Source: Calditrichaceae bacterium (GTDB lineage: Bacteria; Calditrichota; Calditrichia; Calditrichales; Calditrichaceae). Taken from it: a stretch of 41,445 nucleotides of DNA. Of this stretch, positions 4,497-16,963 are shown piece by piece. Every line of letters begins with the position of its first letter. The stretch's first letter is position 1. Both the position numbers and the translations under genes were made by a program. The stretch lies in contig JANTHG010000005.1 of assembly GCA_024762535.1 (NCBI GenBank), forward strand, positions 1 to 41,445. Reading direction: 5' to 3'. The notes under the pieces are model-generated. The model made no database searches and had not been told where the DNA came from. It saw nothing but the letters and a program-made list of their open reading frames with translations.

Positions 4497-4814
4497 TTAT
4501 TTAACATCAATTTGTTTACCCTGTAAAGCTCCAAATCCGGCAACCATTATCAAAGTTCCACTGATCACATCATTCCAGAGATAACCGAATCCAACCTGGA
4601 GGGAAGGAATAAAGGCAGCAATAATTAACCAAATGCCCACAATCATACCAAGCCAAGCCTGCCAGGATTTGTCTTTGAGAATGGTGTAACTTACATACGC
4701 CACAAGAGCGCCTATTACCAAATCATTCCATAAATTAAGAGTTGCGTTAAACTCTAAAAATGCGGAAATAAAAATCCACACGCCAAGTAAACCGTTTGTC
4801 CATGCCTGCCACAT
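4497..4814 (-). CDS. SPW-repeat family small membrane protein
   Basis: Two repeats with WQAWTNGLLGVWIFISAFLEF / WQAWLGMIVGIWLIIAAFIP pattern, four TM segments; RBS AGGAG before ATG. Confidence 0.85.
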   Translation of the reverse strand: MWQAWTNGLLGVWIFISAFLEFNATLNLWNDLVIGALVAYVSYTILKDKSWQAWLGMIVGIWLIIAAFIPSLQVGFGYLWNDVISGTLIMVAGFGALQGKQIDVK

Positions 4815-4861
4815 TTTATTCTCCTTTATGTTAGGTTTTGTTCAGGTTCACTTTAAGTTAA

Positions 4862-4877
4862 AGCATCTATTATGCCA
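4862..4877 (-). promoter_or_regulatory. Candidate sigma54 (-24/-12) promoter of SPW gene 4497-4814
   Basis: Minus strand reads TGGCAT-N5-ATGCT (consensus TGGCAC-N5-TTGCW), exact spacing, -12 element 48 nt from the start codon. Confidence 0.6.
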
Positions 4878-5064
4878 AAAAATATGACATTTCATAAACA
4901 CATAAATAACAATAGCTAAGGTCGTTTCCATATCAGCAAATTTTTGAGAAACCAATAGAAAGTGGGAAATCCCACTTCGCGGGCAAGGATGTTTAAAATT
5001 TAAGATTGAGGAATAGCTTAAAAGAAGGGTGTGAATTGCAAGTTCGCAGTACGGAATCATAAAA

Positions 5065-5133
5065 AAACCTTCACTGTTAGACGGATCGAATGGTAAACTT
5101 TTCGCTAAGTACTAAATCTAACAATGAAGGTTT
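5065..5133 (-). terminator. Long-stem terminator-like inverted repeat after the USP gene
   Basis: 17-bp arms aaaccttcactgttaga (5065-5081) / tctaacaatgaaggttt (5117-5133), one mismatch (a G-U pair on one strand), 35-nt loop, followed on the minus strand by a run of seven T's; starts 6 nt after the USP stop codon. Confidence 0.65.
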
Positions 5134-5139
5134 ACAAGG

Positions 5140-5970
5140 CTATTGGCCTATGAAAAGCGGCTTGTTTCCTTCCCGTATTAAATATTTTGCATGGCTGCCA
5201 ACGATGATTTCTTTTATGGAATGCTTCGAATGTAAACCGGTAACGATTAGATCGGCCCAGTCCGCATATTTTTCTTCCAGAGCCCTGCGAAGATCCATTT
5301 CGGTGTAAGTCTTTATAATATTCTTTACATTATAAGAACGTAAATATTTTTCTGCATAATTTAAATAATATTGTGCTGTTTCCTCATCGGAACCTGCCAT
5401 CAGGATATTAACTTCAAAATTAAATCCACTGGCTAAATGGGCAAACCGTTTCATAGCACGGGCTGCAGGAAAACTGCCGTCAAAAGCAATTAAAACCTTT
5501 TCGATCGGTTTGAATTTTTTAGGAACAGCTAAAATGGGGGTAATTGAATGCTGAATGATTTTTTCCAACGAATCACCGTACCGGGAATCCGTTTCAAAAT
5601 GAAAATGAGTTCGAAGTCCCATTACAATCAGGTCATAAAAAGTGCCTTCGAATAAAACCTGTTCGCTCGGAGAGCCCTGAACTTCGGCTTCAACATGTCT
5701 GATGTTTTTTTCGCTGCAAAGCTGTTTAAATTCGGAAAGCATTTCTTCCACATGTTCTTTTGCATCGTTGATTTTTGCCGCTTCAAAACGTTTTGCCCAA
5801 TACATGCCTCCCGGAGCAATGGGGCCTACGGATTTGGTTATTTCCGGAATATCCAGTACAACTACACCGGTTACTTCGGTACGGTGTCCGCTTGCTAAAA
5901 AACAAGCATAATCGATAACTGACTTCCCGTATAAACTGGGATCTAACGGTGCTAAAATACGTCTAATCAT
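5140..5970 (-). CDS. Universal stress protein, two tandem UspA domains
   Basis: MIRRILAPLDPSLYGKSVIDYACFLA... start, DLIVMGLRTH and second-domain VLIAFDGSFPAARAMKRFAHLA / DLIVTGLHSK...IIVGSHAKYLIREG. Confidence 0.88.
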   Translation of the reverse strand: MIRRILAPLDPSLYGKSVIDYACFLASGHRTEVTGVVVLDIPEITKSVGPIAPGGMYWAKRFEAAKINDAKEHVEEMLSEFKQLCSEKNIRHVEAEVQGSPSEQVLFEGTFYDLIVMGLRTHFHFETDSRYGDSLEKIIQHSITPILAVPKKFKPIEKVLIAFDGSFPAARAMKRFAHLASGFNFEVNILMAGSDEETAQYYLNYAEKYLRSYNVKNIIKTYTEMDLRRALEEKYADWADLIVTGLHSKHSIKEIIVGSHAKYLIREGNKPLFIGQ

Positions 5971-5997
5971 TATTTTGTCCTTTCTAAAGAAACAAAA

Positions 5998-6615
5998 CTA
6001 TTTTTTTAAAATTTTTTCAAACAGAGGGAGCATACGTTTACAAAAATTTAAAGGTGCTGCTTCCTCCTGGGAAAGTGTAATCCGGATATTCATCATGACC
6101 GGCATGCCCAAATAAAGAGTTCCAATATCATCAAGAGAAAATTTATCCGTCCAGATACCGGCGGAGATACCGTCTTCGATGATATTTTGAATATATTGGA
6201 TTTGTGTGTTCAGGATATCATTAAGGCCGGATTTCAGCTCAGCATCATTCAGGTGAGCCACTTCCGCGAATAGCAGAATTGTGATACCTTTGTTTTCGAG
6301 CAAATAGGATATGTGTTTGCAGAATAGTTGTTCTAACCGTTCCTGTGCCGGTATTTCTTTTTGGACAATGGCTGCCATATCCTTTAATAAGCCGGATTTC
6401 ACATCCTCAAGAATATCCAGAAGAATATCTCTTTTACTCGCGTAATGCCGGAAAATGGTTCCTTCGCTAATCCCCACAGCTTTTGCCAGATTGCGGGTAG
6501 AAAGCTGATCTAATCCCTGACTAAAAATAATACTCAGAACAGCTTCCTTAATTTGTGCTTTACGAACAGCTGTGGGCTGCCTTTGGGTTTTCTTTTCCGG
6601 ATTCATTTGATTCAC
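5998..6615 (-). CDS. TetR/AcrR family transcriptional regulator
   Basis: N-terminal HTH: AVLSIIFSQGLDQLSTRNLAKAVGISEGTIFRHYASKRDIL. Confidence 0.93.
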   Translation of the reverse strand: MNQMNPEKKTQRQPTAVRKAQIKEAVLSIIFSQGLDQLSTRNLAKAVGISEGTIFRHYASKRDILLDILEDVKSGLLKDMAAIVQKEIPAQERLEQLFCKHISYLLENKGITILLFAEVAHLNDAELKSGLNDILNTQIQYIQNIIEDGISAGIWTDKFSLDDIGTLYLGMPVMMNIRITLSQEEAAPLNFCKRMLPLFEKILKK

Positions 6616-6624
6616 TTTCTGTGC

Positions 6625-6993
6625 TTATTTATTTTCTTCTAACATCAGGTGCATCGCATCGTGTGCCGTGCTTACCACCTCCGAAGAAACTATAAAACGC
6701 GCTAAGAGAATAGCTTCCATTATTTCTTCTTTGGAAATCCCCTTGTTTCGCGCAACCTGTGTATATGTTTTGGTACAATTTTCGGAACCTGTTGCAGCTG
6801 CTACAGAAATACTCATTAGCAGTTTGTATTTTGCGGGAATCTTGTCGCCGCCCATGGCAAAATTCTTATTCTCCGCATGTTCAAATACAGCGTCTGCATG
6901 GAGACGGGACAGCTTTTGCATGACGATTGGCTGACCACCAAATTCATTTTCCATCGCTTTCAATAATTGATCGATACTCATCTTGTTTCGCAT
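6625..6993 (-). CDS. Carboxymuconolactone decarboxylase/AhpD-like protein
   Basis: IPAKYKLLMSISVAAATGSENCTKTYTQVARNKGISKEEIMEAILLARFIVS helical CMD pattern with a single Cys of the usual CxxC. The start could also be the second Met (6981). Confidence 0.8.
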   Translation of the reverse strand: MRNKMSIDQLLKAMENEFGGQPIVMQKLSRLHADAVFEHAENKNFAMGGDKIPAKYKLLMSISVAAATGSENCTKTYTQVARNKGISKEEIMEAILLARFIVSSEVVSTAHDAMHLMLEENK

Positions 6994-7025
6994 AATATTA
7001 CATCCTTTTTTAGTAATTTTACAAA

Positions 7026-8402
7026 TTAATTATTTTGCCCCTTTAAAAGCTCAATATTCGCCTTAGCCAAAAAGGCATCTTTTTCGATTTTCAGAATCGC
7101 CGTTTTTACACGGGTGACATTAAGCTGGGCATCTTCCAACTGGATATTGGTAATCACGCCGTTTTTATAGCTGATTTTAGCAATTTCGTACGCTTTTTGC
7201 GCTACGCTTAAATTGGCTTTAGCCGATTTCAACTGGGCTGCGAGGGCTTCCAGTTTTACCAACGTTTGTTTCAATTCAAAACGCAGTTTAAGGGAATAGC
7301 CCTTTTCAAATTCCTGAATCCGGCTCAGGTTAGCCCTGGATTCCTGGATTTTTCCATCGGACATTTTGCCATCAAACAGAGTCATCGAAATACCAACGCC
7401 GGCTGCGTACCCCGAACGCCAGGTCTGGTCGTATGGAGGAAAGTCGATGCCATGATAGACATGATAGTTGGCAAACATAAAAAGTGTCGGTTTCTTCCCG
7501 GCCTTTTCTATAGCGCCCTGATTGTGCACTAATTTTTCTTTTATTTTAAGAGCCTGCAACTGATGATTTCCATTTAAAATCTGGTTAAGTAAAGCCTCCT
7601 CTTTTTCTGCCTGAAAGATAGCCTCTTCCCCGCTATCTACACAGCGCAGCGAATCATTCATAGGAAGAGCGAGAAGATTTTTAAGACCGGTTTCTGCGAT
7701 TTGTGATTTTCCTTTTAGGTCGGTAAGTCTGGATTTAAATTCTTCAATTTTACTCTGAAACAGTAAAATATCCAGTTCAGAACGCACGCCTTCTTCATAG
7801 GCTTTCCGGGCTAATTCCAAATGTTGATTCATTTGCCCCAGGGCATCTTTAGTAACCTGAATCACCTTATTTAGGAAAACAATATTGTAAAAAGCTGTGG
7901 TTACTTTATAAGTAATATCTGCTTTGGTCTGTTTCGTTTCCTGAATATAATTTTCTTCTAATTTTTTGGTGCTTTCATTGGCTTTGTCAATTTTACCTCC
8001 GGTGTAAAGCGGGTAAACTAAATTGATATCCGACTTAAACACATCTCTGCTTAAGGATGGATACGGCGCCATGGGACGTAAGGGTACAAATTCCCCTGCC
8101 ACGGGTCCGCTGCCACTCATTACAGGTGCTTGTACCATATGCTGTAAGAGCATGCCCGGCAGATTGTTTGTGTAAAAATATTTTGTTAAAAACGTTACCT
8201 TTGGCGCATACAGAGAATGTGTTTGCACCTGCTTTGCACGGGCAGCCTTTATTTGTGTTTCCGCCGCTTTAACCAAAGGGTTTTTATCCAATGCTATCCG
8301 AACAGCATCATCCAATTTTAATATATGATTGGCCGCAAAAATTTCCTGCGCGAAAAACATGAGCAGCACAAAAAATATCAGGCCCGATTTATTCCATTTC
8401 AT
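7026..8402 (-). CDS. TolC-family outer membrane efflux protein
   Basis: Signal peptide; LDDAVRIALDKNPLVKAAETQIKAARA, YKNGVITNIQLEDAQLNVTRVKTAILKIEKDAFLAKANIELLKG. Confidence 0.93.
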   Translation of the reverse strand: MKWNKSGLIFFVLLMFFAQEIFAANHILKLDDAVRIALDKNPLVKAAETQIKAARAKQVQTHSLYAPKVTFLTKYFYTNNLPGMLLQHMVQAPVMSGSGPVAGEFVPLRPMAPYPSLSRDVFKSDINLVYPLYTGGKIDKANESTKKLEENYIQETKQTKADITYKVTTAFYNIVFLNKVIQVTKDALGQMNQHLELARKAYEEGVRSELDILLFQSKIEEFKSRLTDLKGKSQIAETGLKNLLALPMNDSLRCVDSGEEAIFQAEKEEALLNQILNGNHQLQALKIKEKLVHNQGAIEKAGKKPTLFMFANYHVYHGIDFPPYDQTWRSGYAAGVGISMTLFDGKMSDGKIQESRANLSRIQEFEKGYSLKLRFELKQTLVKLEALAAQLKSAKANLSVAQKAYEIAKISYKNGVITNIQLEDAQLNVTRVKTAILKIEKDAFLAKANIELLKGQNN

Positions 8403-9598
8403 GAATTTACCTCCAAATTCAAATCATTTTGTTTCGAAGGAATCTGAAACTTTTTCCTTTCAAATGATCCGATGATAATCGAAATTGCGGAAAGTGTTAA
8501 GAAACCTGCCGTAAATTTTAAAAGCGTCTTGATTGGCTGAACAACTTCTCTTAAGGGAAGATGGTGATTAAACACGCCATAAATAGCCTGAAGATAATAG
8601 CGCAATGGGAACCAGCCTCCGGCCATTTTTGGAAAATGTGCCATCTGTTCCAATGGAACCAGAAATCCGGAATACATAAAGGCCGGAAAGACAATCACGG
8701 TAACGATTGCGATAAGCGCAACTGAATTATCAATGTTCAGCGTCAGAAACAAAGCGATACTTTGCATAGCGAGAACAAATAAAAATATAATGCCCACCAC
8801 ATTCCATATGTTCGGTGGTATCGGCACAGAGAATAAATACATCGTAGTAAAGAATGCCAGAGAAATTGCTGTACCTACAATCACCCAGGATGAAAGAATA
8901 GGAATCAGAGTCGGTTTGAGCGGCATTTGACGTGCGCGCTTAATTTCCGGGAAGAGATTCTCCAACAAGCGGTGGCTGGTACGCAGCCCCAAAATAATAA
9001 TTACCATGGAAACAATTTGCATGGCCAGGCCCATAAAAGCCGGCAACATTGAAGATTCCATATTCATCGTCGGTGAATAATAGACGCGCTCACTAACCAT
9101 TAACAACGGCGCTTTGGCATGGCGAACATTTGGAATAGCTCCAAGGTCTTCTACGGGAACATGCATGGCATATTGATTATTAACCGTCATCACAACCCGG
9201 TTTAAACCGCCTAACGCCAACTTGGGAATGATTGGATTTGCAGTACCGTTTAATACCGCAAGAATTCGCACATTCCGTTTATTCAAAATATCTTTATACG
9301 CATCATGCGGAATAACAACACCTAGGTCAACTTTACCTTGGTCCACCAGTTTTTGTAAGGCAAGATAATCCGTTGGATGATGTTCTACCTTAAACAGGCT
9401 GGATGCCTGAATATTAAAAGAAAGTGCCCTACTTAAAGCGGAAAAATCTTCGTCACAAATGGCTGTACGGATAGCTCTGGGTTCGCTTTTATAGTACATA
9501 CCCGCCATCATGCTAAAAAAGAACAGTAAGGCCGCCGAAATAATAATTGTTCTGAAAAGCAGAACAACGATACGCGGTTTTGGTTTTGGGGAATTCAT
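8399..9598 (-). CDS. ABC-2 type transporter permease (YhhJ/YbhS-like)
   Basis: N-terminal TM, large periplasmic domain, C-terminal TM bundle with PAFMYSGFLVPLEQMAHFPKMAGGWFPLRYYLQAI motif; ATGA-type overlap with TolC gene. Confidence 0.9.
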   Translation of the reverse strand: MNSPKPKPRIVVLLFRTIIISAALLFFFSMMAGMYYKSEPRAIRTAICDEDFSALSRALSFNIQASSLFKVEHHPTDYLALQKLVDQGKVDLGVVIPHDAYKDILNKRNVRILAVLNGTANPIIPKLALGGLNRVVMTVNNQYAMHVPVEDLGAIPNVRHAKAPLLMVSERVYYSPTMNMESSMLPAFMGLAMQIVSMVIIILGLRTSHRLLENLFPEIKRARQMPLKPTLIPILSSWVIVGTAISLAFFTTMYLFSVPIPPNIWNVVGIIFLFVLAMQSIALFLTLNIDNSVALIAIVTVIVFPAFMYSGFLVPLEQMAHFPKMAGGWFPLRYYLQAIYGVFNHHLPLREVVQPIKTLLKFTAGFLTLSAISIIIGSFERKKFQIPSKQNDLNLEVNS

Positions 9599-10386
9599 TC
9601 TGCTTTACCTCCTGCATCCTGCGGATTCAATTCCAAATACACATAAATGCCGGGTTTGCATAATTCCTTATGATCCAAGATTTTCATTTTTACAGAGAAC
9701 GAACGAACATCCCGCTGGTCACGAAGGGTGGTAGGGGTTTTAGTGGCAAAATCAGCCATGGGCATAATTTGAATGACCTTTGCCGAGATTATATGTTTAC
9801 TACCGGCGGTAGAAATTTTAAAAACTTTACCCAGGCTAATTTGGTCTAAATAGGATTCCGGAATGCTAAACCGTGCCCAGGTTGCTGTTGTGTCGGTAAC
9901 AATTACTACCGGCATACCCGGCGGCATCATTTGCCCCACTTCGAGAATGCGCACATTAACAATTCCGTCAATCGGACTAACGATACTCATATCTTCCAAA
10001 CGCGTATTTAAGGCGGCCAATTTGCTGGTTACCACATTATATGCTGTTTCAATTTCATCCAGTTTTTGCTGTGGAACCGCCCCTGCTTTATAAAGATTCT
10101 GTACCCGTTTACGGTTCACATTAATATTTTTCAACTGGGATTTAAGTGCATTGATATTGGCAGAAAGTTCACGTTTATCTAATTCCGCAACCACCTGGCC
10201 GGCCTTTACCTCGTCTCCTTCGTCCACATTAATGGCAATAATTTTACCGGGCATACGGGTCGTTACGTTAAACTGTGTATTTTCGATATATCCCATAAAT
10301 TCGGGTTTCTTCGGCGTCTCGTTCTGAGAGCAGGCGCTTAATATGAGTAAAATAAACAAGCTTATTATTAAATATTGTTTGTGCAC
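9595..10386 (-). CDS. HlyD-family periplasmic adaptor (lipoprotein)
   Basis: Lipobox LILSAC; lipoyl-like halves FNVTTRMPGKIIAINVDEGDEVKAGQVVAELDKRE and DMSIVSPIDGIVNVRILEVGQMMPPGMPVV. Confidence 0.93.
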   Translation of the reverse strand: MHKQYLIISLFILLILSACSQNETPKKPEFMGYIENTQFNVTTRMPGKIIAINVDEGDEVKAGQVVAELDKRELSANINALKSQLKNINVNRKRVQNLYKAGAVPQQKLDEIETAYNVVTSKLAALNTRLEDMSIVSPIDGIVNVRILEVGQMMPPGMPVVIVTDTTATWARFSIPESYLDQISLGKVFKISTAGSKHIISAKVIQIMPMADFATKTPTTLRDQRDVRSFSVKMKILDHKELCKPGIYVYLELNPQDAGGKAE

Positions 10387-10398
10387 GGGAATCTCCTT

Positions 10399-11289
10399 TT
10401 AATCGTTTAATCCAAATATTTTGTCGAATTGCAATTGTACAGCATAGCTGGAAAACCAGCCGTCATTTTGATAAATCGTATAGGGAATACCAATACGGAA
10501 AAATATTTCTTTACTGTATTTATAACTGAATCCTAATAAAAATTGTATGCGGAAATCATCGGAATATACAATCTTCCTTCCGCTCATTTCGTTTTTAAAC
10601 TGTTTGCTTACGGCAAAGCCTGTTTCCGATTGAAAATCACCAAATGTGCTTTGATATGATTTTTGCAGCAAAGCATAAACACCCGCAGCGTCGCCAAGCT
10701 CTGTATTATTATTATCAGTACCCCGGTAACGGTAAAAAACCGAATAGACAATATCATATGAATCTATTAAAAAGATGCCGTTTAGTTCAGGTTGAATTTG
10801 CCAGGCGCCGGTACCCAAAGGATATTCCGTCGGCTTTAAGTTCTTATTTTCTCCGGTTGGGAAAATAACCGCGATCTTTGCACTCAGTGCAGAAGAAGTG
10901 GATTGAGATTTCCAAATCCGGTAGAAACCGCCCCATTCCAGGTCGCCAAAGCCCTTGGCACTCTGGTTAAGATTAAGAGAATAATGATGAATGAATAAAA
11001 ACGGAACACTCAGATAGGTGTTAAAATTATCTGCCACTCCATATTCGGCAAATACCTGCCAGGCCGCCTCGTTGAGAATGGTGTTATCCGGCAGATCGAC
11101 CATCTTACCGTTGGTCATATCTTTCATTTTCATATATTGCGGAAAGCTTCCCTGAAACGAAATATAGGTTTTATGAGACCCGATTGTATTGGGCTGAAGG
11201 CCAAATACAGATCGATTATCCTGTGCCTGCAATACCGTAAAAACAGACAGGGTCAATAGAAATAATTTAGTTATTCTGCTTATGTGCAT
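10399..11289 (-). CDS. Predicted outer-membrane beta-barrel protein of unknown function
   Basis: Signal peptide (LFLLTLSVFTVLQAQ), alternating aromatic/polar strands (e.g. AEYGVADNFNTYLSVPFLFI; FLLGFSYKYSKEIFFRIGIPYTIY); first gene of efflux operon. Confidence 0.65.
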   Translation of the reverse strand: MHISRITKLFLLTLSVFTVLQAQDNRSVFGLQPNTIGSHKTYISFQGSFPQYMKMKDMTNGKMVDLPDNTILNEAAWQVFAEYGVADNFNTYLSVPFLFIHHYSLNLNQSAKGFGDLEWGGFYRIWKSQSTSSALSAKIAVIFPTGENKNLKPTEYPLGTGAWQIQPELNGIFLIDSYDIVYSVFYRYRGTDNNNTELGDAAGVYALLQKSYQSTFGDFQSETGFAVSKQFKNEMSGRKIVYSDDFRIQFLLGFSYKYSKEIFFRIGIPYTIYQNDGWFSSYAVQLQFDKIFGLND

Positions 11290-11742: not shown

Positions 11743-12282
11743 TCAGTCAAAATCGAGCAGTGCGGACATCTTTTCTACTAATCCGTCATCTATTTGATGA
11801 TGATACAAAACCGGTGCCCTGAACATGGGATTTTTTCCGCGTGCATTTACGGGAATCAACAATTGAAAATTATCGGAAAAATCTTCGAAATCAATTAAAA
11901 TGGGGATCTCGAGATTAAAACTTAAACAGGCATGTAAAGATGAATAATAATCGATTGATTTAAACAAAGGCAAATAATCTTTAATATCTTCCCTGTTTAA
12001 ATAGGTTATAACTTTTAATTCCTTAAGTTTGTTATCATCAATGGCAATCTTGGTCTGATATACTAATGTTTTGCCTTTTCTAAAGCGTACAAATTTTGTG
12101 TTTGAGTCCAACTCATAAGTATATGCCGGCCGGCCGATAATTACGCCATCGATTCTATGATTTTTTAATTCCGATAAAACCATACCTGCGCTGGGCATCG
12201 CAATAAAATTAATTTCGGGCAACTGTTCCTGAAGTTTTAGAATATAAGGTTCCATAGTTGGACAATATGCGATTGAAGTCAT
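11743..12282 (-). CDS. Cytosolic binding-protein-like protein of unknown function (179 aa)
   Basis: The ORF track starts at 12378, but ATG at 12282 has RBS GGAAGGG and avoids overlap with the upstream gene; MTSIAYCPTMEPYILKLQEQLPEINFIAMPSAGMVLSELKNHRIDGVIIGRPAYTYE resembles a periplasmic-binding-like fold; no signal peptide. Confidence 0.65.
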   Translation of the reverse strand: MTSIAYCPTMEPYILKLQEQLPEINFIAMPSAGMVLSELKNHRIDGVIIGRPAYTYELDSNTKFVRFRKGKTLVYQTKIAIDDNKLKELKVITYLNREDIKDYLPLFKSIDYYSSLHACLSFNLEIPILIDFEDFSDNFQLLIPVNARGKNPMFRAPVLYHHQIDDGLVEKMSALLDFD

Positions 12283-12307
12283 TTGTAATCCCTTCCATTT
12301 TGGTTTA

Positions 12308-12760
12308 TTAAAGTTCGTTAAAAATCCGGAATATTTCCGTTTTTGTTTTCGCACGACGTATTTTTTCGGCCTGCTCATGTTGGCATAAAAAACGCTTCAA
12401 TTTAAGTAATGCATCTGCCAAACTGTTATCCATCTCTTCAGGAACGGCAAGAAGAGAAACCAGATCAATAGGCTTTTTATGTTTTGAATAATAGCCAATT
12501 CCTTCATCAAAACGGCCAAAAATAAATAAGGGCTCGCTAATCGAATTGGTAACCGCATAAAAAGAAATATTGCAACACCCTCCTACAACCGAATCGTAAA
12601 GTTCGGAATCTACAACTACTTGTGCAAACTCGGAGGGATTGATGACACCGGGGTTATTGATAGCAAGATTAATCATAACCCGTAAAGCGCTTAATTCCGA
12701 ATGAGCCTTTAGACCGAGATGAATATTCTCTAAACGAAGCCAATTTATTATACGTTCCAT
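12308..12760 (-). CDS. PTS EIIA type-2 / PtsN-like domain protein, apparently lacking active-site His
   Basis: Manual alignment to the PtsN pattern: ...SELYDSVVGGCCNISFYAVTNSISEPLFIFGRFDEGIGYYSKHKKPIDLVSLLAVPEEMDNSLADALLKLKRFL...EKIRRAKTKTEIFRIF; the IPHG position reads FYAV. Confidence 0.7.
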   Translation of the reverse strand: MERIINWLRLENIHLGLKAHSELSALRVMINLAINNPGVINPSEFAQVVVDSELYDSVVGGCCNISFYAVTNSISEPLFIFGRFDEGIGYYSKHKKPIDLVSLLAVPEEMDNSLADALLKLKRFLCQHEQAEKIRRAKTKTEIFRIFNEL

Positions 12761-12778
12761 ATTTGCCCCAGGTATATC

Positions 12779-12808
12779 AAAAAACCGGGCGCGAAACCCG
12801 GTTTTTTT
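12779..12808 (-). terminator. Rho-independent terminator, bidirectional in form
   Basis: aaaaaaccggg-cgcgaaa-cccggttttttt; T-run/A-run on both sides; lies between SPW gene (12842) and EIIA-like gene (12760). Confidence 0.85.
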
Positions 12809-12841
12809 GAACCGTTTATCAACTGCTTTTGTTACTGGTGG

Positions 12842-13177
12842 TTAATGCGCCGGTTGATGCGTTGTATGGTGCGTTTCACCGGAAGAAAGCGCAGCAAAAC
12901 CGGCTGTAGCTATCAATATTCCACTAATCAGATCATTCCAAAGATTTCCAGAATGCATTTGCAATGCCGGAATAAAAGCAGCTACGATCAACCACAAACC
13001 CATAATGCCTGCCAGCCATCCTTGCCATGATTTTTTACTAATCATGCCGAACCCGGCGACCGCTACGATAATACCCACGATTAAGTTATTCCACATATTA
13101 CCAGTTGCTGGCATGGGTAAAAAGGCTGCGATTATTAGCCAGATCCCCAAAACTCCGTTAGTCCATGCTTGCCACAT
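12842..13177 (-). CDS. SPW-repeat family small membrane protein
   Basis: WQAWTNGVLGIWLIIAAFLP / WQGWLAGIMGLWLIVAAFIP repeats; close paralogue of 4497-4814; His-rich tail GETHHTTHQPAH. Confidence 0.87.
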   Translation of the reverse strand: MWQAWTNGVLGIWLIIAAFLPMPATGNMWNNLIVGIIVAVAGFGMISKKSWQGWLAGIMGLWLIVAAFIPALQMHSGNLWNDLISGILIATAGFAALSSGETHHTTHQPAH

Positions 13178-13227
13178 TTTAGACCTCCTTTATTTAGTTG
13201 AACCCTGTCGTTTTCAATTTTAACTAT

Positions 13228-13243
13228 TACAAAGGATGTGCCA
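13228..13243 (-). promoter_or_regulatory. Candidate sigma54 (-24/-12) promoter of SPW gene 12842-13177
   Basis: Minus strand TGGCAC-N5-TTGTA (consensus TGGCAC-N5-TTGCW), exact spacing, -12 element 51 nt from the start codon. Confidence 0.65.
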
Positions 13244-13412: not shown

Positions 13413-14819
13413 TCAGTGTTTAAAATTTTCGATGTTTACATTATGTTTCTTAATCAAATTCTGAATCTGACGCCGGTCGTAACCGCTTTTCTCAGCCGCA
13501 TGAGAAATATTGCCGGATGTAGATTTCAGTAAACGTTTTAAAAAATCGTATTCAATTTCCCGCAAAATATTTGCCGTTCGTCGTTGTTTTTCCTGTTGTA
13601 ATTCTTCTTTTGTTTCCGCCTTTTTAACAAGACCTGTTTTAATCTCTTCCGGCAGGTTATTAATTCCAACGATTCCTTCTTTGGCAAAGATGATGGCCTG
13701 TTGAATTACATTTTCCAGTTCGCGCACATTACCCGGCCAGGGATATCGTGTCAGGGCTTCCATCGCATCATCGGAAACGGATAAGTTATGAGCACCTTCC
13801 ACATTCAACTGTTGATGTTTATCTATAAAATAACGAACCAAAACCGGGATATCTTCTTTACGATCCTTCAGAGGGGGGATTTGAATGAATACAACTTTTA
13901 AACGATAGAATAAATCCTGACGAAAACGGCCTTCTTTAACTTCCCGCGCCAAATCACGGTTTGTTGCCGCCACAATGCGGACATCGGTTTGTAAATATTG
14001 GGTTCCCCCTACCCGGGTAAAGCGCTGGTTTTCCAGAATATGTAATAATTTTACCTGTAACTCTAAGGGCAGCTCGCCAATTTCATCTAAAAAAAGAGTG
14101 CCGCCACTGGCCATTTCAAACTTCCCTTTACGCGTCTGAACCGCTCCGGTAAACGCACCTTTTTCATGACCGAACAATTCGCTTTCCATCAATTCCTTAG
14201 GAATAGCTCCGCAATTTATTTCGATAAAGGGTTGGTCAGCACGTGGGCTCATATAGTGAACAGAGCTGGCCACCAATTGCTTTCCGGTTCCGGATTCTCC
14301 CTGAATCAAAACAGTAGCATTCGTTTGGGCCACATCTTTAACTGTTGATAAAATGGCTTGCATGCGCGGATTGGCTGTAACAATTTCCCGCTGACCTTCG
14401 TATTTCTTAAGCCGTTCTTTTAATGTTTTATTTTCTTGCACGAGGCTTGCAAAATGAAGCGCTTTTTCGATGAGCGGCGTAAGCTCGGCCAGCTTAATCG
14501 GTTTTAAGATATAATCGAAAGCGCCCAGTTTCATGGCGTTAACAGCATTTTCTACAGTGCCAAATGCTGTGATAATAATAATGGGAATTTGTTTAAAATG
14601 CTCTTTAACATATTCCAGTAGCTGCAAACCGTTTACTTTACCGGGCATTTTTAAATCGGTTATCACAAGATTAATTACTTCATTTTGAAGATGCTGCTGT
14701 GCTTCTTCTCCGCTCTTTGCCAAAAACACAGAATACTTTTGTTGCAGATTAATTTTAAGCACTTTGCGAATCTTTTCTTCATCGTCAACAATCAAAATAC
14801 TCGGTCTGTCAGGATTCAT
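13413..14819 (-). CDS. NtrC-family sigma54-dependent response regulator (REC-AAA+-Fis HTH)
   Basis: REC: LVITDLKMPGKVNGLQLL; AAA+: GESGTGKQLVASSVH, GAFTGA, GTLFLDEIGELPLELQVKLLH; C-terminal Fis HTH NISHAAEKSGYDRRQIQNLIKKH. Confidence 0.96.
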   Translation of the reverse strand: MNPDRPSILIVDDEEKIRKVLKINLQQKYSVFLAKSGEEAQQHLQNEVINLVITDLKMPGKVNGLQLLEYVKEHFKQIPIIIITAFGTVENAVNAMKLGAFDYILKPIKLAELTPLIEKALHFASLVQENKTLKERLKKYEGQREIVTANPRMQAILSTVKDVAQTNATVLIQGESGTGKQLVASSVHYMSPRADQPFIEINCGAIPKELMESELFGHEKGAFTGAVQTRKGKFEMASGGTLFLDEIGELPLELQVKLLHILENQRFTRVGGTQYLQTDVRIVAATNRDLAREVKEGRFRQDLFYRLKVVFIQIPPLKDRKEDIPVLVRYFIDKHQQLNVEGAHNLSVSDDAMEALTRYPWPGNVRELENVIQQAIIFAKEGIVGINNLPEEIKTGLVKKAETKEELQQEKQRRTANILREIEYDFLKRLLKSTSGNISHAAEKSGYDRRQIQNLIKKHNVNIENFKH

Positions 14820-16963
14820 TATCTATCTCCAAAATTTTTATGATCTAACTTTTTAGAAAGCCGGATATGAAACGTTGTTTCTCCCGGTTTGGAATCCAGC
14901 GAAATCTTCCCGCCAAGGGTCTCGATTAAATGTTGCACAATGGAAAGCCCCAGCCCGGTTCCGTTTTCTTTAGTGGTAAAAAAAGGTTCAAAAACATTAT
15001 CCTTCAATTGGTCCGGAATACCAATCCCGTTATCCTTTAAATATATATGAATCGTTTTGGGCAGGATCTCAAATCGGCATTCCAGTATTCCCTGCTCAAT
15101 TGAAAAATCATCCTGCTTTTCGGCGCGCTCTTTGATTGCCGCTATCGCATTTAGCCCCAAATTCAATAATATTTGTTTTAAAATGGCTGGATCACTTATA
15201 AATGATGACCGGGGATGATTCACACTAAAACGGGTTTGCAATTTTTCTGTTTCCTGCAGAGCTAAATTCATTTCCAGATATTCAATCAGCTCTTCAGCCT
15301 GAACCGTGATAAACTCTGGCGGTTTGATGCGGGATAAATTTAGAAAATCTGTTAGTATATTATTTAGACGGTTCACCTCTTCAATAATGAACTGTTTAAG
15401 TTCCTGCTGATCCTCCCATCCGATATTGGGTTGCAATAGTGTTTCGGCTGAGGTTGAAATCGTATTGAGCGGGTTGCGGATTTCGTGCGCGATACCGGCT
15501 GTAAGCTGCCCCAGGGCCGCTAATTTTTCAAGCTGGAAATGTTCTTTAAAATGATCGTGCATTTGGCGGATTATATTATTCCGCTGAAAGGATCCGGCAA
15601 TATTACTGGCAAATATATTGTAAATTTCGATTTCATCTTCTGTATATTCCTGATTAAATTTTTTCTTAGAAAATAAAAGAATTCCTAATAGTTCCTTGTC
15701 AAAAATCAGAGGAAGGATAATCTGAATCCGTTTCTTCTCTAAATAATCATGAACCCGGGAATCCAAAGCCTGATGATCCAATTCATAAAATTCCATAGCC
15801 TTTTTGTGTTTAATTAATTCTTTAACAAAATGGCATGAAGCCGGTATCTCGGGCGCTTCTTCATCTTCATGCGCTTCTGTATATGTGCCGGCGTCATCCT
15901 CAAGATAAAAGGATGTTACGGATTCAATATAAAAATTTTTAATTAAGAATGTTTCCACCGTTTCGAAAAAAAGTTTGGGTTCGGCATAGGTTTGCAACTC
16001 TTTAAAAAGTTCCAGCGATTTCTTCCGATACTGGTGGATATCTTTATTTAGCATACGATCGAACAGTACATTCAATTTTTTTTCAAACGGACGGATCATT
16101 AGAATCAATGTAAAAATGAGGAGCCCGCTTAGGGTAAAGGAATCAATATTAAAATAGTGCACCAGACTATCTGTAATGCTTTTAATTACTACAAAATAAA
16201 CCGCCAGTGCAAAGGATGACAAAATAGTGTAGCTTAATCCGCTGCTAAGATATTTTTTAGGTCGAAATAATTTAAATTGTACAATAGCGACAAAGAAAAA
16301 TATGGCAATCAATAAAGTAACAACGGTGGATAAAAAATAGAGTGATAAAACACCATGCATAAAGGGGTGGCTGAGCTGAATAAGGATAAAGCTTAAAAAG
16401 ACGATAATCATTCCAAAGGTAAAAAACCTGGTTTGATTACGAAGGCGGATGGTACGTATTTTATGAATTTTCCCGATGAGGATCCAATTTCCCCAAATAA
16501 CATAAACCAGAGCGATGATGAGCAACAAAACAAAGCGAAAATTATTGGCAAAGCTGAACTGAAAATAATAGATATTCTTCATATCTGATAGCGATACCAG
16601 TTCAAACTGGAAATCAGGAAAGGAAAGGCTCAGGGCAAGAATGGGTAAAGCGAACACAGCTGCATAGAAAAGAGGTCTGGCCGTCCAGGGATGAAAATTT
16701 TTCGGGAAATGGTAGGCTATGATTACAAAAAAAGCAGGCGATAAAAATATTATTCGATAAAGAATCTGCCCCCAAAACATGGCGCTTGCTTCCGCCTTGC
16801 TGTTCAGGATAATCACTTCCGCAAGATTCCAAAAGGAAAAGCTAAAGATAAAGGCGGAAAACCAGCGGTTCAGCGTAGATCGTGGCGCATCCATTAATAC
16901 AATGAATGCCAGACTGAAATTCATTGTAAATGAAATTAACCCTGGGAGGGAATAGATATTCAT
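14819..16963 (-). CDS. Sensor histidine kinase with multi-TM N-terminal sensor and GAF-like domain
   Basis: Multiple TM helices; GAF-like region; AALGQLTAGIAHEIRNPLNTISTSAETLL H-box; LKQILLNLGLNAIAAIKE N-box; DNGIGIPDQLKDNVFEPFFTTKENGTGLGLSIVQHLIE. Confidence 0.95.
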   Translation of the reverse strand: MNIYSLPGLISFTMNFSLAFIVLMDAPRSTLNRWFSAFIFSFSFWNLAEVIILNSKAEASAMFWGQILYRIIFLSPAFFVIIAYHFPKNFHPWTARPLFYAAVFALPILALSLSFPDFQFELVSLSDMKNIYYFQFSFANNFRFVLLLIIALVYVIWGNWILIGKIHKIRTIRLRNQTRFFTFGMIIVFLSFILIQLSHPFMHGVLSLYFLSTVVTLLIAIFFFVAIVQFKLFRPKKYLSSGLSYTILSSFALAVYFVVIKSITDSLVHYFNIDSFTLSGLLIFTLILMIRPFEKKLNVLFDRMLNKDIHQYRKKSLELFKELQTYAEPKLFFETVETFLIKNFYIESVTSFYLEDDAGTYTEAHEDEEAPEIPASCHFVKELIKHKKAMEFYELDHQALDSRVHDYLEKKRIQIILPLIFDKELLGILLFSKKKFNQEYTEDEIEIYNIFASNIAGSFQRNNIIRQMHDHFKEHFQLEKLAALGQLTAGIAHEIRNPLNTISTSAETLLQPNIGWEDQQELKQFIIEEVNRLNNILTDFLNLSRIKPPEFITVQAEELIEYLEMNLALQETEKLQTRFSVNHPRSSFISDPAILKQILLNLGLNAIAAIKERAEKQDDFSIEQGILECRFEILPKTIHIYLKDNGIGIPDQLKDNVFEPFFTTKENGTGLGLSIVQHLIETLGGKISLDSKPGETTFHIRLSKKLDHKNFGDR

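Follow-up and report, generated by a model that had tools for sequence, protein, structure and literature searches.

The analyzed window, a stretch of DNA of 41,445 nucleotides, is contig C5 of a Calditrichaceae genome, herein referred to as G000, and was studied within a set of 40 Calditrichota genomes. Genes for a histidine kinase (HK), an NtrC-type response regulator (RR), an SPW-repeat membrane protein, an EIIA-like protein, and a 179-aa protein are found on its minus strand, in this order. The features of this locus, together with those of a second SPW gene, are as follows:

14819..16963, minus strand: histidine kinase of 714 aa with the Pfam domains HisKA_7TM, HisKA, and HATPase, at the head of the HK-RR-SPW locus
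13413..14819, minus strand: NtrC-type sigma-54-activating response regulator of 468 aa (Pfam Response_reg, Sigma54_activat, and HTH_8)
13229..13243, minus strand: predicted -24/-12 (sigma-54) promoter TGGCACATCCTTTGT, 66 nt upstream of the SPW start codon, with one mismatch to TGGCAC-N5-TTGC
12842..13177, minus strand: SPW-repeat membrane protein of 111 aa (Pfam SPW, 58.9 bits)
12779..12808, minus strand: intrinsic-terminator hairpin between the SPW and EIIA-like genes, detected by sequence reading and folding
12308..12760, minus strand: EIIA type-2 (PtsN-like) domain protein of 150 aa, with Tyr68 in place of His and with Cys62-Cys63 (Pfam PTS_EIIA_2, IIANtr fold, and subfamily alignment)
11743..12282, minus strand: 179-aa cytosolic protein, similar to periplasmic binding proteins of type 2 and LysR effector domains (AlphaFold model and Foldseek), with relatives in three other genomes
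4863..4877, minus strand: second -24/-12 site TGGCATAATAGATGC, 63 nt upstream of the second SPW gene and assigned to the same putative regulon
4497..4814, minus strand: second SPW-repeat protein of 105 aa, upstream of a BcrAD/DUF2229 activase (Pfam SPW search and synteny)

The SPW, EIIA-like, and 179-aa genes had been described in an earlier sequence-only reading as three same-strand genes; they exist at the positions given there, and the parts had been read correctly. In-depth searches covered the phylum Calditrichota, plasmids, and viral contigs.

Single -24/-12 motifs occur in the 41-kb window at chance level (4 found versus 2.6 expected). A promoter call from the motif match alone was therefore dropped, and conservation was used instead. 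Each of the 10 MWQAW(T/V)NG-subtype SPW genes, distributed over six genomes (G000, G004, G008, G010, G027, and G035), is preceded, 63–93 nt before its start codon, by a sigma-54 site with at most two mismatches; among 145 control upstream regions, such a site was present in only 5 (Fisher p ~2e-12, computed on sequences that are not independent). The other SPW subtype mostly lacks such a site, which was present in one of the five genes tested. Additionally, the SPW gene is located directly downstream of the kinase and regulator genes in five genomes (G000, G008, G010, G027, and G035), and the rpoN gene was found in the window genome (contig C283). On the basis of the site conservation, the adjacent kinase and regulator genes, and the presence of rpoN, control of SPW by sigma-54 in Calditrichota is well supported at the level of sequence, and the promoter proposed earlier for the head of the locus is retained. 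The NtrC-type response regulator is the probable activator of the SPW promoters.

The HK-RR-SPW unit is an old one. It spans three families of the phylum, mostly without the EIIA-like and 179-aa genes, as in G008, G027, and G035. The HisKA_7TM kinase, the NtrC-type regulator, and a -24/-12 promoter beside the regulator gene are shared with known NtrC-type two-component systems that have a 7TM sensor kinase; the output of the window locus differs, being an SPW membrane protein. One structural model of SPW is available in the literature (PMC8078820), and no paper was found in a literature search for "SPW repeat". The conserved HK-RR-sigma54-SPW unit counts among the new findings and provides a testable regulatory context for an uncharacterized membrane family in a poorly studied phylum. 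The second SPW gene, also having a sigma-54-type promoter, is located directly upstream of the gene for the 1406-aa BcrAD/DUF2229 activase, and this order is kept in G000, G004, G008, and G010. Together, the SPW genes look like a small regulon under sigma-54.

The SPW gene is followed by a hairpin (12808-12779; dG -19.5 kcal/mol, z -4.2) that was missed by the automated terminator scan, probably because its A/T tracts pair. An equivalent hairpin was found at the same place in the related genome G010 (locus L053; dG -15.5, z -4.2), so the terminator is kept in both genomes having the SPW, EIIA-like, and 179-aa genes together. A single sigma-54-driven module of three genes, as had been suggested for this locus, is not supported, given this conserved terminator. 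Because of its strength and conservation, transcription from the SPW promoter would reach the EIIA-like and 179-aa genes by read-through at best. Only ~20 nt separate the terminator from the start codon of the EIIA-like gene, a distance that could hardly accommodate a complete promoter of its own; hence, downstream expression depends on read-through, or else on an unseen promoter that lies within the terminator or ahead of it. In the latter case, the terminator may end the transcript and the unseen promoter may drive the EIIA-like/179-aa pair.

Only two related genomes, G000 and G010, have the EIIA-like and 179-aa genes side by side, both times in the order HK-RR-SPW-EIIA-binder. In G004 both families are present on different contigs, whereas the binder occurs alone in G008, and the EIIA-like gene alone in G002 and G020. 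Thus, the linkage of the two families sought in other genomes was found in part: the genes stand together in the window genome and one relative and apart elsewhere, and a widely conserved linkage was not observed. Rather than a conserved system of three genes, the "module" is a pair restricted to one lineage.

These data bear on another explanation, according to which two independent accessory genes came to lie behind SPW by chance in one lineage, being transcribed separately or from a weak promoter of their own and functionally unrelated to SPW, to sigma-54, and to one another. Such independence agrees with the conserved terminator that follows SPW, with the three genomes that have HK-RR-SPW without the pair (G008, G027, and G035), and with the families being unlinked in G004 and single in G002, G008, and G020. 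On the other hand, the adjacency is kept between two genera at 63-72% protein identity, and both families, held by 5 and 4 of the 40 genomes, co-occur in 3 of them (hypergeometric p ~0.004, a value that ignores phylogeny). Chance placement is accordingly possible, though on balance somewhat doubtful. Differences between G000 and G010 at codon positions 1/2/3 are 44/29/76 for the EIIA-like gene and 39/13/87 for the 179-aa gene, a purifying pattern suggesting that both genes are protein-coding and under selection.

The EIIA-like protein belongs to the Pfam family PTS_EIIA_2 (2e-12, 47.8 bits versus a cut-off of 27). Its model (pLDDT 91) has the IIANtr fold, with a TM score of 0.83 to the IIANtr of N. 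meningitidis (2a0j). In fold, in Pfam family, and in being a stand-alone protein of ~150 aa, it resembles IIANtr/PtsN (PF00359). Unlike IIANtr/PtsN, it lacks the phosphorylatable His, and a Cys-Cys pair with a Phe replaces the [GN]-G-x-[AV]-[IV]-P-H loop. The column of the active-site His holds Tyr68, which bears out the earlier assignment of a His-less PtsN-like domain. With scores of 16-17.5 bits, the protein is below the NCBIfam PtsN equivalog cut-offs (138.7 and 221). In addition, its gene is not located beside rpoN, ptsO, or the canonical ptsN pair of this genome. Neither rpoN nor ptsO was found in its neighborhood on C5; apart from rpoN on C283, the genes for EI and HPr are both on contig C57, and those for two canonical EIIA proteins form a pair on contig C21. 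The EIIA-like protein would be unable to join this phosphorelay at the usual residue. With the canonical ptsN pair elsewhere and no phosphorylation site in the EIIA-like protein, the earlier argument from the PtsN/rpoN nitrogen-PTS circuit does not carry over to this locus.

In a profile search of the 40 Calditrichota genomes, five members of the EIIA-like subfamily were found (G000, G002, G004, G010, and G020), scoring 200-236 bits; every other sequence scored at most 63.6 bits. The active-site loop of all five has the motif [GN]-C-C-x-[IV]-x-F, and F-x-x-G-I-G-Y-[YF]-S is likewise common to them. Non-canonical EIIA members carry Tyr, Arg, or Glu at the His column, Arg and Glu being found in more distant members. 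Canonical EIIA genes are present in almost every Calditrichota genome, often as a divergent pair, and [AV][IV]PH is kept in 33 of the 33 canonical paralogues examined. The shared CC and GIGY motifs, the gap in bit scores, and the His kept by the canonical paralogues argue that, judging by their sequences, the EIIA-like proteins are a coherent subfamily that has departed from phosphotransfer at the usual residue, rather than a decayed copy. Decay would mean that a ptsN paralogue lost its His by drift and is disappearing, in line with the Pfam score of 47 bits against 114-128 for the canonical paralogues in the window genome. However, the frames are open in all members (one being cut by a contig end), the pattern between genera is purifying, and new invariant residues (CC, F67, GIGY, and PxDL) recur in members that come from two different families of Calditrichota. 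Decay is thus very improbable, and the reading of the gene as a degenerate pseudogene was rejected.

Foldseek matches to the EIIA-like model include the cytoplasmic domains of band 3 / SLC4 proteins (E ~3e-6 to 6e-4), a remote resemblance only. These domains, in contrast to the EIIA-like protein, are eukaryotic, much larger, and fused to a transporter. They are a precedent for an EIIA fold without the PTS His that serves as a docking or regulatory domain of a transporter. In a scan of a genome collection with the EIIA-like protein, the sole relative was the G010 contig (JANTFQ010000030.1, Calditrichaceae bacterium). Searches of plasmids with the EIIA-like and 179-aa families yielded only PTS-type EIIA proteins or nothing, and no relatives of either family were found in the viral collection. 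Plasmid matches from Roseomonas and Rhizobium were rejected as subfamily members, since those read have the canonical PH motif. The titles and abstracts of the papers found for PtsN/EIIA contain no mention of a His-less PtsN-like protein with a Cys pair, and no described function was found for the conserved cysteine motif. The small His-less Cys-Cys EIIA subfamily is new; what stands out most in it is the Cys-Cys pair.

The 179-aa protein has no Pfam match even at E 10, and a sequence search in the PDB revealed nothing credible. Its predicted structure, with two alpha/beta lobes, has 666 PDB matches at E <= 0.001 in Foldseek. The best are CynR and OxyR (E 3e-10, prob 1.00); periplasmic binding proteins are also matched, with agreement in topology. 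The global TM score to LysR domains is only ~0.4, with an rmsd of 13-14 A, possibly because the modeled lobes match and are placed differently. Mean pLDDT values for five models of the family are 89, 88, 70, 65, and 64. No signal peptide and no hydrophobic N-terminal segment are visible in the 179-aa sequence, whose N-terminus forms strand 1 of the fold. Structure prediction for the two proteins thus yielded an IIANtr fold and a LysR-effector or binding-protein fold, the latter, as proposed earlier, without a signal peptide.

Being cytosolic two-lobed ligand binders, LysR effector-binding domains (CynR, OxyR, and BenM/CatM) are the best structural matches. The 179-aa protein differs from them and from the full regulators in that it is shorter, superposes poorly over its whole length, has no detected sequence similarity, and lacks a winged helix-turn-helix, as it starts at strand 1 and has no Pfam HTH match. 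Periplasmic binding proteins of ABC transporters differ in having a signal peptide and partner import genes; no import ABC permease or ATPase genes were seen next to any of the four members of the 179-aa family. Relatives were found in G010 (72% identity) and in G008 and G004 (~30%), with a further copy truncated at a G008 contig end; weak profile matches (E 0.005-0.09) were found in G001, G007, G011, G013, and G021. The residues C7-P8-T9-M10, S31, G50-R51, T72, D131, and D134 are invariant in the relatives of 30% identity. By analogy, these presumably include the loops where such folds bind ligands and would mark a candidate pocket. The protein represents a new, unnamed family of stand-alone effector-domain-like proteins.

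Neighborhoods of the two families point to contexts of transport and of metalloid or redox stress; the neighborhoods are few and dominated by close relatives. In G004 and G008, genes for an ArsR regulator and an FMN/FAD reductase precede that of the 179-aa family. Neighbors of the EIIA-like gene in G002 and G004 are a chromate transporter gene and Suf-type genes, joined in G004 by an Fe-S oxidoreductase gene. Relatives of the window outer-membrane protein (10399-11289), whose gene lies downstream of the pair, were found in no genomes other than G002, G004, and G008; those of G002 and G008 are located in ArsR/thioredoxin/DGC/SBF clusters.

Such contexts would fit a thiol switch, in which the Cys-Cys pair of the EIIA-like protein is a working site for redox, metalloid, or metal sensing, and both families are part of gene clusters for oxidative or metalloid stress. 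This explanation accounts for Cys62-Cys63 being invariant across the five members where the active-site loop once was, for the invariant Cys7 of the binder family, for the relatives beside ArsR, FMN/FAD reductase, SufC/SufBD, Fe-S oxidoreductase, SBF symporter, and chromate transporter genes, and for the homology of the window outer-membrane protein to proteins of the ArsR/thioredoxin/DGC/SBF clusters. However, the sequences are only five, adjacent cysteines may have a structural role, no canonical metalloid site is evident, and the neighborhoods in G020 and G010 are without such genes. A thiol switch is thus unlikely. Less likely still is a combined form, in which a PTS phospho-switch was turned into a thiol switch with a vicinal Cys pair and, together with the stand-alone cytosolic effector domain, became a non-transcriptional small-molecule or metalloid sensor gating an adjacent transporter.

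From the locus anatomy, the predicted folds, the loss of His, the conserved Cys pair, the promoter, and the terminator, we infer that the pair most likely acts as a ligand-responsive cytosolic adaptor on transport or envelope stress. The arrangement tentatively preferred here consists of a cytosolic ligand sensor and a non-phosphorylatable EIIA-fold adaptor whose target lies in transport or in the envelope, with low expression behind the SPW promoter. A two-gene cassette would have been added downstream of the old HK-RR-SPW unit in one Calditrichaceae lineage. The 179-aa binder, a LysR-effector-like domain without the DNA-binding part, would sense a small, probably anionic, cytoplasmic molecule. 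The EIIA-like protein would serve as a protein-protein adaptor on the target, replacing the phosphorylation switch. The two genes would be co-transcribed at a low level via read-through of the SPW terminator, and their products may interact physically. Exporters or transporters neighbor the family genes in several genomes, namely ABC-2/HlyD/TolC-like ones in the window and a chromate transporter in G002 and G004. If the preferred arrangement is true, a phosphotransferase domain has been kept for its binding surface after the loss of phosphotransfer, with a new conserved cysteine motif, and a LysR-type ligand domain is used without DNA binding.

Several gene clusters were observed around these families. 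In G004 (L049 1-4352), genes for a 4Fe-4S/FAD/NAD oxidoreductase, a SufC-like ATPase, and a short SufBD adjoin the EIIA-like and chromate transporter genes; SufC/SufBD apparently represent a minimal SufBC outside a full SUF operon. In G008 and G002 (L118 3130-13485 and L119 77-5460), the cluster comprises ArsR, a thioredoxin-like protein, a Phenol_MetA_deg outer-membrane protein, DGC, an SBF symporter, a USP-like protein, and a 4Fe-4S protein; a chromate transporter is also present in the G008 cluster. The ArsR/thioredoxin-like/DGC/SBF clusters are coherent and unnamed, and are possibly involved in metalloid or oxyanion handling. In the window (4815-11289), genes for the outer-membrane protein, HlyD, ABC-2, a TolC-like protein, CMD, TetR, and USP lie between the 179-aa and second SPW genes. 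This block is absent at the equivalent place in G010 (L053 6666-6953), where the second SPW gene lies directly downstream of the 179-aa gene; hence, the exporter block was inserted or lost there.
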